A DNA stretch of 64,000 nt, taken from NCBI GenBank assembly GCA_003268905.1, contig QLTU01000003.1:62001-126000 (forward strand). The letters are read 5' to 3'. Origin of the DNA: Acidovorax defluvii. GTDB lineage: Bacteria > Pseudomonadota > Gammaproteobacteria > Burkholderiales > Burkholderiaceae_C. The notes beneath the pieces were generated by a model. It had not been told where the DNA came from. It ran no database searches and saw only the letters and a list, made by a program, of their open reading frames with translations. Position numbers and translations under genes: made by a program. The stretch's first letter is position 1. Each line of letters opens with the position of its first letter. This document shows, piece by piece, positions 2,799 to 32,814 of the stretch.

Positions 2799-3878
2799 TC
2801 AGAGCTTTTGCGACGACATGAAGCTGTCGAAACGCGACTCTGCAAAGCGGAACCAGAGGATCTGATCGCGCTGGAAATTGCGGTAGTCAGCGTAAATCTT
2901 CTTCCAGTCTGGGTTGCTCTTGTCGAGGTCGGCATACAGACCCATGGTGGCTTTGAACGAAGCGTCCAGCACCGTTTGCGGGAAGGGCACGACCTTGGTC
3001 TTGGCGGCCACCAGTTGCTTGAGGGCGCCGGGGTTGCGAGAGTCGTAGCGGGCCTGTGTGGTGACGTGGGCTTCGTGCGCAGCAGCACGCACAATTGCAC
3101 GGTTCTCGGCAGACAGGCTTTCCAGAGCCTTCTGATTCACGTAGAACTCCAGATTCAGGCTACCCTCCCACCAGCCTGGGTAGTAGTAGAACGGAGCCAC
3201 CTTGTTGAAGCCCAGCTTCAGATCGTCGTATGGACCGATCCACTCTGCGGCGTCGATGGTGCCTTTTTCCAGGCCTTGGTAGATTTCGCCGCCAGGAATG
3301 TTCTGTGGCACGCCACCCATGCGCTCGATCACCTTGCCAGCAAAGCCACCCACGCGGAACTTCAGGCCCTTGATGTCTTCAGGCGACTTCACTTCCTTGC
3401 GGAACCAGCCGCCCATCTGTGCGCCCGTGTTGCCGCCCAGGAAATTGACGATGTTGTATTTGGCATAAAACTCGCGCATCAGCTTGGTGCCGTTGCCGTC
3501 CACCATCCACGCCGTGAGCTGGCGGGAGTTCATACCGAATGGAATGGCGCCACCAATGGCGAAGGCTTCATTCTTGCCAAAGAAATAGTAAGGAGCGGTG
3601 TGGGCAATTTCAACCGTGCCGTTTTGCACGCCGTCCACCACGCCAAACGCGGGCATCAGCTCGCCAGCAGCATGGACCGAAACTTCAAATTTGCCGCCCG
3701 ACATTTCCTTGACGGCCTTGGAGAACACTTCGGCAGAGCCGAAGATGGTGTCCAGGGATTTGGGGAAACTTGACGCCAGACGCCAGCGCACAGCAGCCTG
3801 GGCGTGAACAGCCGGGGCAATACCCGCTGCGAGCACGCCGGCAATACCGGTCTTCTTGATCAGGGAACGACGATCCAT
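2799..3878 (-). CDS. TRAP transporter substrate-binding protein, DctP family (paralog 2)
   Basis: This is a periplasmic solute-binding protein of the COG4663 type (359 residues). The N-terminus MDRRSLIKKTG followed by a hydrophobic stretch and AVHAQA is a twin-arginine signal peptide, so the protein is probably exported folded. I chose the ATG at 3878 because it gives a complete Tat signal and has AAGGA upstream; the frame is open further upstream but that part looks non-coding. The protein is closely similar over its whole length to the gene just upstream (4030-5112), including the VRWRLASSFPKSLDTIFGSA block, so the two are tandem duplicates. It probably serves the dctQM permease converging on it. 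Confidence 0.92.
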   Translation of the reverse strand: MDRRSLIKKTGIAGVLAAGIAPAVHAQAAVRWRLASSFPKSLDTIFGSAEVFSKAVKEMSGGKFEVSVHAAGELMPAFGVVDGVQNGTVEIAHTAPYYFFGKNEAFAIGGAIPFGMNSRQLTAWMVDGNGTKLMREFYAKYNIVNFLGGNTGAQMGGWFRKEVKSPEDIKGLKFRVGGFAGKVIERMGGVPQNIPGGEIYQGLEKGTIDAAEWIGPYDDLKLGFNKVAPFYYYPGWWEGSLNLEFYVNQKALESLSAENRAIVRAAAHEAHVTTQARYDSRNPGALKQLVAAKTKVVPFPQTVLDASFKATMGLYADLDKSNPDWKKIYADYRNFQRDQILWFRFAESRFDSFMSSQKL

Positions 3879-4029
3879 GGTGATTTCCTTCAATACACAT
3901 GCGCTTTTGGCACACGATGGGCCCAAAAAAACCGGCGTCAGCGCTGCCAAGGGTGTGCAGCACCGGAACCGGATCGAGAAAGAATGGGGCGGGGGCCCAC
4001 CAGAGGCCTGCCGCCCAAGCGTGGGCTGA

Positions 4030-5112
4030 TTACAGCTTCACGCCCGTCATGTAGTTGTCAAAGCGCAATTCGGAATAACGCGCCCACAGCAACTGGTCGC
4101 GCTGGAATGCACGCATGTCCTGGTGAATGGTCTTGAACTCAGCCGACTTGGCTTCGTGCTCGGCAAAGACCTCCATGGAAGCCTTGTAGCCAGCGTCCAT
4201 GATTTCCTTGGGGAAAGCCTTGAGCTGCGTCTTGGCTGCCACCAGGCGCTTGAGCGCGATGGGGTTGAAGGCGTCGTACTTGGCGGTCATGTCGCGTGCA
4301 GCCACGGTGGTGGCGGCATCCACAATGGCCTGGAATTCCGGGGTCAACGCCGCATAGGCCTTGGTGTTGATGAAGAACTCCAGCTCGGCACCACCCTCCC
4401 ACCAGCCGGGGTAGTAGTAGAACGGCGCAACCTTGTTGAAACCCAGCTTTTCATCGTCGTAAGGACCGACGAACTCTGTAGCATCGAGCGTGCCTTTTTC
4501 CAGCGCCTGGTACACATCACCCCCGGGCATGTTCTGCGGGACCACGCCCAGCTTCTGCATGGCTTCGCCGAACAGGCCGCCACCCATGCGCATCTTCAGA
4601 CCCTTCAGGTCGGCAACCGTCTTGATTTCCTTGCGATACCAGCCGCCCATCTGCGTGCCGGTGTTGCCTGCGCTGCGGCTCTTGATGTTGTAGTTGGCGT
4701 AGAACGCATCCATCAGCTTGCGGCCGTTGCCGTGCTCCATCCAGGCGTCCATCTGACGCGCCGTGAGGCCGAAAGGCACCGCGCAACCGAACGCGAAGAT
4801 GGAGCTTTTGCCCGTGAAATAGTAGGGCGCCGTCTGGGCCATTTCGATCGTGCCGTTTTGCAGGGCATCCACCACACCGAAGGCGGGCATCAGTTCACCG
4901 GCAGCATGCACGGACACCTCGAATTTGCCGCCCGAAAGCGCACGCACCGTCTTGGCGAACATTTCGGCGCTGCCGAAAATGGTGTCCAGCGATTTAGGGA
5001 AGCTGGAAGCAAGACGCCAGCGCACGGCGGCCTGGGCGTGGACTGCGGGGGCGATGCCTGCGGCGAGAACACCTGCAATGCCAGCGTGCTTGATGACGGA
5101 ACGACGATCCAT
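4030..5112 (-). CDS. TRAP transporter substrate-binding protein, DctP family (paralog 1)
   Basis: This is a 360-residue periplasmic binding protein with a Tat-type leader (MDRRSVIKHAG, then a hydrophobic core and AVHAQA). It shares its N-terminal 45 residues almost exactly with paralog 2 and stays clearly homologous to the end, where the shared FQRDQ(I/L)LW motif lies. The 151 bp between the two genes hold no obvious terminator, so co-transcription is possible. The amino-acid differences are spread along the protein. That suggests an old duplication with possible divergence in ligand; the ligand itself is not visible. Confidence 0.92.
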   Translation of the reverse strand: MDRRSVIKHAGIAGVLAAGIAPAVHAQAAVRWRLASSFPKSLDTIFGSAEMFAKTVRALSGGKFEVSVHAAGELMPAFGVVDALQNGTIEMAQTAPYYFTGKSSIFAFGCAVPFGLTARQMDAWMEHGNGRKLMDAFYANYNIKSRSAGNTGTQMGGWYRKEIKTVADLKGLKMRMGGGLFGEAMQKLGVVPQNMPGGDVYQALEKGTLDATEFVGPYDDEKLGFNKVAPFYYYPGWWEGGAELEFFINTKAYAALTPEFQAIVDAATTVAARDMTAKYDAFNPIALKRLVAAKTQLKAFPKEIMDAGYKASMEVFAEHEAKSAEFKTIHQDMRAFQRDQLLWARYSELRFDNYMTGVKL

Positions 5113-7227: not shown

Positions 7228-7228
7228 T

Positions 7229-7290
7229 TACTATTATTTTGATAGCTTATAGCGCTTGATACACAAGGGCTAGAGGCCAATTTGACATAA
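7229..7290 (-). repeat. Dispersed palindromic repeat, copy A (leader of dxs)
   Basis: Read on the minus strand, this contains the family landmarks AATTGGCCTCTAG, then CCCTT, AAGCGCTATAAGCTATCAAAA and an AT-rich tail ending just before the dxs ATG. The left half of the palindrome has CCCTT instead of CGCTT, so the stem is weakened. The copy before the NUDIX gene has the same layout. Confidence 0.8.
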
Positions 7291-7319
7291 AATTCAACGG
7301 CATCAAACCCCACCCGGGC

Positions 7320-8351
7320 TCAATACGATCGGTTCACCACCATGTCGGCCAGCGCCGCCAGTGCGCGCGTGTCCGCCAGGCCCGAGGCCGCCAGCGCGTC
7401 ATGCGCCTGCGCCAGCAACTCCTGCGCATGGGCCTGCGCGGGGGCCAGCCCGAGCAACGAGACATAGGTGGGCTTGTCGCTGGCAGCATCCTTGCCGGCG
7501 GTCTTTCCCAGCGTAGCCGAGTCGGCGACCACATCCAGGATATCGTCCACCACCTGAAACGCCAGCCCCAGCGCCGCGCCGTAGTCGGCCAGCGCCTTTT
7601 GCGCCGCGGCGCTGGACGCCCCGCAGGCCACGCCCATCATCACGCTGGCTTGCAGCAATGCACCGGTTTTAAGGCGGTGCATGTTGCGCAACTGGTCCTG
7701 CGTCAGCGCCAGCCCCACGCTGGCCAGGTCAATCGCCTGCCCGCCCGCCATGCCTGCAGATCCGGCGGCGCGCGCCAGCTGGCGGCACAGCGCAGCCTGC
7801 ACGGTCGCAGGAATGTGTTCATCCTCCGGTGTGAGCAGCTCGAAGGCAAATGCCTGGAGTGCATCGCCCGCCAGCAAGGCCTGCGCCTCGCCAAACTGCA
7901 CATGCACGGTGGGCTTGCCCCGGCGCAATACATCGTTGTCCATGCACGGCATGTCGTCGTGCACCAGCGAATAGGCATGGATCAGCTCGACGGCGCACGC
8001 GGCGCGCAGGGCCGCCTCGTCCATCCCGGCGCGCAGGGCCGCCTCGTCCATCCCGGCGCGCAGGGCCGCCTCGTCCATCCCGGCGCGCAGGGCCGCCTCG
8101 CCCAGCCCCGCGCGCGACGCCACCTCGCGGTCCATATCGCCCGCCCCGTTCTGCACCGCCTCATAGGCCGCCAGCACCAGCAACGGTCGCAGGCGCTTGC
8201 CGCCATCGAGCACCGCGTAACGCATGGCCTCGCCCAGGCGGGCGGGTGCATCCTTGCCAACCCAATGGCCCAGGGCCTGCTCGACCCGATCAAGGTGGTG
8301 TTGGCTCCAGCCTGCCAGGTCGAAGGCCGGTTGGGCGGTCTTGGCGGACAT
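7320..8351 (-). CDS. ispA: Farnesyl/geranyl diphosphate synthase (IspA family)
   Basis: IspA joins isopentenyl units to dimethylallyl and geranyl diphosphate for ubiquinone, heme O and undecaprenyl precursors. From the ATG at 8351 the protein has 343 residues. It has GGKRLRP near 51, the first Asp-rich motif DDMPCMD at 132-138 and the second DDILD. An ATG one codon earlier at 8354 overlaps the xseB stop; the AGGA spacing favours 8351. Family members are nearer 300 residues. The extra length is a run of near-identical 9-residue units (x-E-A-A-L-R-A-G-M) at about 82-117, just before the first Asp-rich motif. The frame stays open, so function may be kept. Confidence 0.95.
   Translation of the reverse strand: MSAKTAQPAFDLAGWSQHHLDRVEQALGHWVGKDAPARLGEAMRYAVLDGGKRLRPLLVLAAYEAVQNGAGDMDREVASRAGLGEAALRAGMDEAALRAGMDEAALRAGMDEAALRAACAVELIHAYSLVHDDMPCMDNDVLRRGKPTVHVQFGEAQALLAGDALQAFAFELLTPEDEHIPATVQAALCRQLARAAGSAGMAGGQAIDLASVGLALTQDQLRNMHRLKTGALLQASVMMGVACGASSAAAQKALADYGAALGLAFQVVDDILDVVADSATLGKTAGKDAASDKPTYVSLLGLAPAQAHAQELLAQAHDALAASGLADTRALAALADMVVNRSY
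8001..8108. repeat. 27-bp tandem repeat inside ispA, four units
   Basis: Four consecutive 27-bp units begin GGCGCGCAGGGCCGCCTCG. The first three are identical and the fourth has diverged at its end (8082-8108). Each unit encodes nine residues, so copy-number changes stay in frame. Only one AALRA segment is expected at this position in the family. Confidence 0.95.
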
Positions 8352-19497: not shown

Positions 19498-20307
19498 GTG
19501 ACCACCAACCGGGTGATCGTGACCAGACCCGCGCGCGAAGCGGCGCACTGGGTGGAGCAGCTGGCTGCGCGGGGCCATGCCGCCACGGCGCTGCCCCTGA
19601 TTGCCATTGGCGCCTGCACCGACCCCGGTGCGCGCGCCGCCATCGCCCGGGCCCGGGCCCAACTCGACAGCTACCGTGCCGCCATGTTTGTCAGCGGCAA
19701 CGCAGTGGACTACTTTTTTGAACAAAAAGAGCCTCTAGCGCTTACGGAACCTGCGCCATCAGCTATTAAAACAAGAGCATGGGCACCTGGCCCCGGAACC
19801 CTGCGTGCACTGTTGCGCGCGGGGGTTCCGCTCGACTGCATCGACAGCCCGGCGCCCGATGCAACGCAGTTCGACTCGGAATCCCTGTGGCAGCAGGTGG
19901 CGACACAGGTGCGCGCAGGCGACCGCATTCTCATCGTGCGCGGCTGCTCCGAGGGGGCCGAGCCAGGCCCCGGCATCGGGCGCGACTGGCTGGCCCGCCA
20001 GATCGAGCAGGCGGGCGCCACGGTGGAGTTTGTGGTGGCCTACACACGGGGTGCGCCGCGCCTCACCGCCGAACAGACCACGCTGGCCCATGCAGCGGCA
20101 GGCGACGGTTCGTGGTGGCTGCTCAGCAGCTCGGAAGCGCTTGCGCACCTGGCCAGCGCCGCACCTGGCCTGGCACTGCACACAGCGCGCGCGCTGGCCA
20201 CGCACCCACGCATTGCACAGGCAGCGCGTGCCGCCGGGTTTGGCCGCGTGCACGAATGCCGGCCCGCACTGGATGACGTGGTGGCCTCGATAGAATCGGC
20301 GGCATGA
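19498..20307 (+). CDS. hemD: Uroporphyrinogen-III synthase
   Basis: HemD cyclises hydroxymethylbilane with inversion of ring D. The GTG at 19498 gives 269 residues; a TTG at 19471, overlapping hemC, is an alternative. The N-terminus NRVIVTRPAREAAHWVEQL and the FVSGNAVDYFF segment are typical of the family. Between YFFEQK and AWAPGPGT a copy of the dispersed intergenic repeat has been read in frame. It adds EPLALTEPAPSAIK, roughly 15 residues, near the loop after the first half-domain. The gene is otherwise intact and stays in frame with hemX, which starts in an ATGA overlap. Confidence 0.92.
   Translation: MTTNRVIVTRPAREAAHWVEQLAARGHAATALPLIAIGACTDPGARAAIARARAQLDSYRAAMFVSGNAVDYFFEQKEPLALTEPAPSAIKTRAWAPGPGTLRALLRAGVPLDCIDSPAPDATQFDSESLWQQVATQVRAGDRILIVRGCSEGAEPGPGIGRDWLARQIEQAGATVEFVVAYTRGAPRLTAEQTTLAHAAAGDGSWWLLSSSEALAHLASAAPGLALHTARALATHPRIAQAARAAGFGRVHECRPALDDVVASIESAA
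19727..19772 (+). repeat. Dispersed palindromic repeat, copy D (inside hemD)
   Basis: The landmarks GCCTCTAGCGCTTA and GCGCCATCAGCTATTAAAA of the repeat family occur within the hemD coding sequence in the same orientation as copy C. Some loop and stem positions have changed, and the reading frame through it is open. Confidence 0.8.
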
Positions 20308-32330: not shown

Positions 32331-32594
32331 ACCAGAATTGCCCCCATATTCTGCACATTTACGGGCAATGCGTGGGTTAGCTGGCCTTGATGCGGGTTGC
32401 TGGCGCTGAAACCAAGGTCAGCAGCATTCCGGTAAAAATGCACCAAAAGGTGCAAGGCGGTTTGCGTTTTTCTGAGCCCCAAGCGTGCACAACGGGCAGC
32501 ACTGGGTGCCGACAATGGCAGCCCGTTCCATGCTGGTGCCTATGCTCTTTTGGGCGCGAAAGAGGCTTCCCGCCCCGCCCCCACAGGCGGCCCG

Positions 32595-32680
32595 CTGTGG
32601 CTGTGGCTGTGGCTGTGGCTGTGGCTGTGGCTGTGGCTGTGGCTGTGGCTGTGGCTGTGGCTGTGGCTGTGGCTGTGGCT
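32595..32680. repeat. Hexanucleotide tandem repeat (CTGTGG), 14 units
   Basis: This is a pure run of 14 CTGTGG units with two extra bases, about 130 bp beyond the primase stop and in no supported gene. Elsewhere 31857-32814 holds the arm sites, the left iterons and no open frame that looks coding. Confidence 0.95.
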
Positions 32681-32814
32681 GGTGCACCTGTAGTTGGGCC
32701 TGACCTTAGGGCAGCCCATTGGGCAATGGCGCTGCCGCTGGTGCAAGTGCTGGCGACGGTGCTGTCGCACGCCACAGGGTGGGCGGGTGCGGGCGTCTGT
32801 ACGGGCTGCGCCGT

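Follow-up and report, generated by a model that had tools for sequence, protein, structure and literature searches.

The stretch of DNA analysed here (the window, 64,000 nucleotides, G000:C3:62001-126000) belongs to a 4.1-Mb genome in 83 contigs (G000), and includes a hemD gene whose product has its closest named relatives in Acidovorax. The gene carries a member of a repeat family which is also found between the called genes of the window. The features are listed below in window coordinates, with scores in bits from a matrix built from 36 genomic copies.

19498 to 20307, plus strand: hemD, uroporphyrinogen-III synthase; open frame, Pfam HEM4 (PF02602, E = 9.1e-24), inferred GTG start
19714 to 19780, plus strand: full 67-nt unit in the hemD frame, residues 72–94 (codon at 19501 = 1), 74 bits
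19762 to 19780, plus strand: right end of the hemD unit, GCT ATT AAA ACA AGA GCA T, from codon usage in 29 HemDs of the genus
7228 to 7294, minus strand: copy lying between called genes and meeting a gene start with its right end, 97.7 bits
10088 to 10154, minus strand: weak copy between called genes, 27.1 bits
13218 to 13284, plus strand: copy between called genes, 88.2 bits
25745 to 25811, minus strand: copy between called genes, 67.4 bits
29833 to 29899, minus strand: copy between called genes, 58.9 bits
30691 to 30757, minus strand: copy lying between called genes and meeting a gene start with its right end, 98.4 bits
46122 to 46188, minus strand: copy lying between called genes and meeting a gene start with its right end, 55.4 bits
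48499 to 48565, plus strand: copy between called genes, 88.4 bits
57218 to 57284, plus strand: copy between called genes, 66.1 bits
62313 to 62379, plus strand: weak copy between called genes, 30.2 bits

The first-pass annotation had placed a repeat core at 19727–19772, inside hemD and in frame. The matrix score, the open frame and the Pfam match confirm that this is repeat-family sequence within the gene and that the frame is kept. The core is a true one but its extent was drawn too short, the complete unit covering the 67 nt from 19714 to 19780 (the match to model R1, at G000:C3:81713-81780, corresponds to window 19713–19780). Between species, the best-kept portion is the right end, 19762–19780. 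The same annotation described the repeat as breaking the boundary between YFFEQK and AWAPGPGT and adding about 15 residues, which is not what is found: the ends of the unit encode FF and T-R-A, which are native HemD residues.

The 36 genomic copies align without gaps (alignment A1), and the consensus of the unit in the hemD orientation is AATTTTGAGTCAAATTGGCCTCTAGCGCTTATTGGATAAGCGCTAGCAGCTATCAAAATAATAGTAA. A second alignment of 23 hemD and 11 genomic copies (A2, 34 rows) is collinear and gap-free over its full length. The unit is an imperfect palindrome, with conserved blocks distributed along all of its 67 nt. A matrix scan of the window gives 11 copies of at least 20 bits, while a single base-shuffled version of it gives no match of even 0 bits. 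In 388 kb of coding DNA from the same genome, there are 25 matches of at least 20 bits, 19 of at least 30 and 15 of at least 40, compared with means of 1.2, 0.1 and 0.0 after synonymous-codon shuffling. The two kinds of shuffle rule out a chance origin for the hemD match.

Most of the family counts come from model R1, which was itself partly built from hemD copies; the model search finds at least 150 copies in the genome. The 464 kb scanned with the matrix hold 93 copies of at least 20 bits (12 of them inside an integron-like array), which extrapolates to about 700–800 per genome. Twenty-four of the 93 lie inside frames that remain open, with coding sequence to either side; of these, 12 are in one sense frame and 12 are spread over four other frames; the unit-bearing genes, as judged from solved homologues, include purL, mutS, folP, truB, nadE, pepN, moeA, lpxB and an RNA methyltransferase. 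Among 200 genomes drawn from the order and searched under stricter filters with model R2, eight had any match, and more than one match was seen only in genomes of the same family. A lineage-specific repeat family centred on the Comamonadaceae is the best reading of this distribution. In several loci (L151, L152, L155, L165 and L169) the right end of intergenic units abuts an ATG or holds an AGGAG resembling a ribosome site. The integron-like cassette array with its 12 copies occupies the first 8,500 nt of contig 1 (L280:1-8500), and some of the array's own units measure about 318–320 nt; its repeated sites appear to be attC-like, and one of its open frames presumably resembles an aminoglycoside nucleotidyltransferase. 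The window also contains other repeats, namely tandem repeats at 8000–8134 and 32594–32683 (27-nt units and GCTGTG runs) and long direct repeats at 3127–5107, spaced by about 1,230 nt and 77–80% identical, perhaps tandem paralogous genes.

The hemD copy is old. The unit is found at the same site and in the same frame in 29 of the 32 Acidovorax HemDs read, the exceptions being G005 and G031, whose loop is GC-rich and shorter, and G002, whose loop is eroded and of similar length. Outside Acidovorax, it is carried by 34 genomes of other genera of the family (63 less 29). Of 80 loci from named records, two of which share one contig, 56 score at least 20 bits at hemD. In others, among them Paracidovorax citrulli and the Rhodoferax MAGs ND4 and STA_46, the length of the segment is kept but its DNA mostly is not. 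At least six genomes of the family, from different genera, have a variant whose right end is longer. Since the same site is occupied in most Acidovorax and most of the named loci, the copy is best read, on these sequence comparisons, as an old and probably vertically inherited member of the family, and the depth of conservation among relatives rules out a recent insertion into hemD. The earlier statement that the hemD copy shows the repeat to be mobile loses its footing here. No precise empty site was found in HemD among the relatives read; the opposite expectation, that all relatives would share an ancestral segment without similarity to the repeat, fails as well, as the segment of most relatives does have it. 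One locus in the set (L258) comes from a record titled Pantoea sp. 18069, whose HemD is 57% identical to the HemDs studied here, and the record is possibly mislabelled or mixed.

The hemD unit is conserved as DNA, with AT-rich codons persisting between species in a GC-rich gene. In the 29 HemDs of the genus, GCT is used in 29/29 and AGA in 29/29, AAA in 27 of the 27 that have a lysine and ACA in 22 of the 23 that have a threonine; elsewhere in the gene, AGA and GCT make up 1.8% and 5.5% of their synonyms. A set of 28 HemDs from other genera, picked by eye as unit-bearing and thus favouring the motif, gives AGA in 27/28, GCT in 28/28 and AAA in 17/17. In hemD the Ile codon varies at its third base, as does the matching column of the genomic copies, and column conservation in hemD tracks that of the genomic copies more generally (Spearman 0.57 for the 29 HemDs of the genus and 0.64 for 24 others). 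The GC content at third positions (GC3) is 0.27 in the unit against 0.81 in its flanks for the 29 repeat-rich Acidovorax, and 0.87 against 0.90 for three repeat-poor ones. In many species the hemD copy keeps fixed ends around a core that has diverged and is no longer palindromic, and the AGA fixed in hemD differs from the ATA which is commonest at that position in the genomic copies. Near the end of hemD (window 20290–20296), another Ile codon is ATA in 29/29 HemDs of the genus and 26/26 from other genera; it lies in a TAGAAT context immediately before the next start codon, perhaps as a promoter or start-region signal.

Repeat content separates the Acidovorax genomes into 35 of 40 with at least 115 matches each and five with only 3–8. 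For a broader comparison of 138 HemDs, repeat-rich was defined as at least eight matches per genome: 63 have the unit in a repeat-rich genome, 65 have neither, ten are from repeat-rich genomes (10 of 73) and have no unit, and a unit in a repeat-poor genome was never seen. Few branches of the HemD tree are well supported, and only two independent pairs can be drawn on them, of which 1.8 on average agree and none goes in the opposite direction, which is not significant; shared ancestry could account for part of the association. Within the genus, the HemDs read from repeat-poor genomes number only three. Among the genomes compared, only those that carry the rest of the repeat family retain the DNA spelling of the hemD unit.

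The pattern seen for hemD is clearly that of purL as well, and in part that of folP. The purL unit scores 25–84 bits and spans 21 codons in all 32 repeat-rich genomes read (of 35), while the site scores below 0 bits in all five repeat-poor ones, which have either 17 GC-rich codons (G031, G211, G005) or 24–25 codons (G002, G030). The GC3 of the PurL unit and its flanks is 0.39 and 0.89 in the 32 repeat-rich genomes, and 0.76 and 0.93 in the five repeat-poor ones, and the column conservation again follows the genomic copies (Spearman 0.72, both strands scanned, 37 hits from 32 loci). For folP, 19 of the 32 repeat-rich genomes read have a unit of at least 20 bits and 13 fall below (one at -47), the site being below 0 bits in 5/5 repeat-poor genomes. 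In all 37 FolPs read, the GDV region and the DPGIGF motif lie the same distance apart, and the GC3 of unit and flanks is 0.56 and 0.79 (27 of the repeat-rich genomes) compared with 0.83 and 0.89 (five repeat-poor). Where the family has been lost, the sites in all three genes hold GC-rich native or eroded sequence.

That HemD tolerates the segment, as the first-pass annotation had proposed, is supported: the stretch is a low-confidence loop in a mostly confident model and it is kept across genera. The model has a mean pLDDT of 91.8, with residues 71–90, between a helix and a strand, as its weakest part (block means of 69 and 58); apart from it, just one block falls under 90, 151–160 (73). In HemD the unit stands in place of a loop. 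Among the 29 HemDs of repeat-rich Acidovorax, the FF-to-TRA segment measures 22 codons in 27 and 25 and 24 codons in the remaining two; it measures 14 codons in two repeat-poor ones, and in many other genera of the family the loop is, by eye, just 4–5 residues shorter than the unit. The model suggests that HemD itself may need only a tolerated loop at this site.

A comparison with solved homologues indicates how the unit sits in other proteins. The segment is longer or shorter than its counterpart by 0 residues in FolP and LpxB, -1 in MutS, +3 in NadE, +4 in TruB, about +4 in the RNA methyltransferase, +3 to +7 in PepN and +7 in PurL, and by about +28 in MoeA; for HemD, a weak alignment gives +6. 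In most of the proteins compared (8/9) the unit replaces host sequence or slightly lengthens a loop, and only MoeA, with about +28 against -1 to +7 in the others, looks like a plain whole-unit insertion. Spacers without the entire unit were seen on comparing L232 with L240, L244 and L254 (gaps of 4, -5 and -9) and L220 with L210 and L218 (gaps of 4 and 5), the latter spacer carrying the unit in several other loci, so units have been gained or lost elsewhere than in hemD. Among the 62 copies of at least 40 bits outside the integron-like array, every pair differs at no fewer than 12 of 67 positions, which argues against any recent copying within the 464 kb that were examined; the 56 pairs with 18 differences or fewer, compared with a mean of 16 in column shuffles, point to copying in the past.

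The link between DNA conservation at the coding sites and abundance of the family is seen directly in these comparisons, while its cause is inferred. We lean towards the view that the hemD copy is an ancient member of the family whose letters are held by a process acting in trans in high-copy genomes, and not by HemD function. This process would involve either a protein that recognises the unit, so that selection or drive keeps or favours the sites, or recombination among the copies, by which the motif is restored. Motif recognition is preferred to gene conversion, since the hemD copies have diverging cores between fixed ends. The hairpin forms 81.4% of its pairs compared with 80.3% in column shuffles (reached by 42 of 500), its covariation score is equalled by 25 of 500 shuffles, arm pairing (65% outer, 90% inner) is little above shuffles, and RNAalifold gives three pairs only. 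Pairing barely above column composition fits a double-stranded recognition site no worse than an RNA. As a tentative and more doubtful extension, the unit could be the site recognised by a Comamonadaceae system not yet described, such as a novel uptake or chromosome-organising signal. The sequences of HemD, PurL, FolP and other proteins would then be set in part by the motif and not by the protein, and would relax when the system is lost. The one candidate examined as the trans factor or mover, a RAYT, is rejected: all five repeat-poor genomes have it, and in three repeat-rich ones it was missed. The RAYT nearest to a copy is a RAYT-like gene of 231 aa (L148:1112-1866) whose stop codon is overlapped by a unit; by eye, it has its own, different REP-like flanks.

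Other explanations have to be weighed against this trans-acting process. A selfish palindromic element of the kind known from Rickettsia (Rickettsia palindromic elements, RPEs), inserted once into hemD in an ancestor of the family, trimmed and then inherited, would explain the in-frame copies inside many genes, the additive look of the MoeA copy, the spacers with or without a whole unit and the excess of close pairs; we find it unlikely, as inheritance alone should not fix AGA, GCT and AAA across genera where flanking GC3 is about 0.8, and the FolP, LpxB and MutS copies come without added length. Gene conversion among hundreds of copies, keeping the hemD copy family-like with a unit that has no recognised function, agrees with the way conservation accompanies family abundance and with the match of hemD conservation to the family column profile, but the diverged core, lost palindrome and fixed ends, together with an AGA that is not the commonest genomic triplet, make it quite improbable. 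A regulatory or RNA element specific to hemD, which conservation at the DNA level inside the gene might suggest, is very hard to believe given the similar behaviour of purL and folP, pairing so close to the shuffles, and Rfam, which gives no match in the window at gathering scores nor at the hemD site up to an E-value of 1.

A repeat within an essential gene is usually taken for an insertion that is tolerated. In this genus, natural losses of the family coincide with native or eroded coding sites, and this opens to test the idea that protein sequence can be dictated by a DNA motif spread over the genome. Caution is also due with AT-rich, oddly conserved loops in Comamonadaceae proteins, which may stem from the motif and not from protein function. 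A literature search on Acidovorax and Comamonadaceae repeats, REP/RAYT systems, uptake sequences and hemD palindromes found no description of the family, which, given its partial coverage, is weak evidence of absence.

The unit resembles the RPEs in its placement and uptake sequences in its behaviour, and fits neither class completely. RPEs are palindromic repeats found in frame inside conserved genes, truB included (PMC3733652, PMC10969869, PMC2229807), about 105–150 bp long and described as insertions fused in frame (PMC2229807, PMC10969869). Our unit is likewise palindromic and in frame in conserved genes (24/93), with truB common to both, but it is shorter (67 nt) than the RPE lengths given there, mostly replaces host sequence (additive in one of nine proteins, MoeA), has its DNA conservation tied to presence of the family and belongs to another lineage. 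The DNA uptake sequences of Neisseriaceae (DUS) and Pasteurellaceae (USS) are motifs of about 10–12 nt in hundreds of copies or more, in coding and non-coding DNA, with an orientation or frame preference in genes and a reported bias towards genome-maintenance genes (PMC2346458). The unit is comparable to these in being over-represented genome-wide, coding DNA included, and in its frame preference, and differs in being 67 nt long. REPs are short palindromes that are mostly intergenic, with some in genes, many of these for replication or repair (PMC3733652). Our unit is also short, palindromic and mainly intergenic with some copies in genes, but the consensus of the 36 copies has no terminal GTAG or CGTC tag, and the RAYT examined, matched in 37 of 40 genomes of the genus including all five repeat-poor ones, is not distributed with the repeats. 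MITEs have terminal inverted repeats and a target-site duplication as their marks; in the unit the outer arms are 65% and the inner arms 90% paired, little above shuffles, and no target-site duplication or parent transposase was identified, the transposase examined being the one RAYT. What the unit shares with MITEs is a small size and its presence or absence as a whole in spacers.
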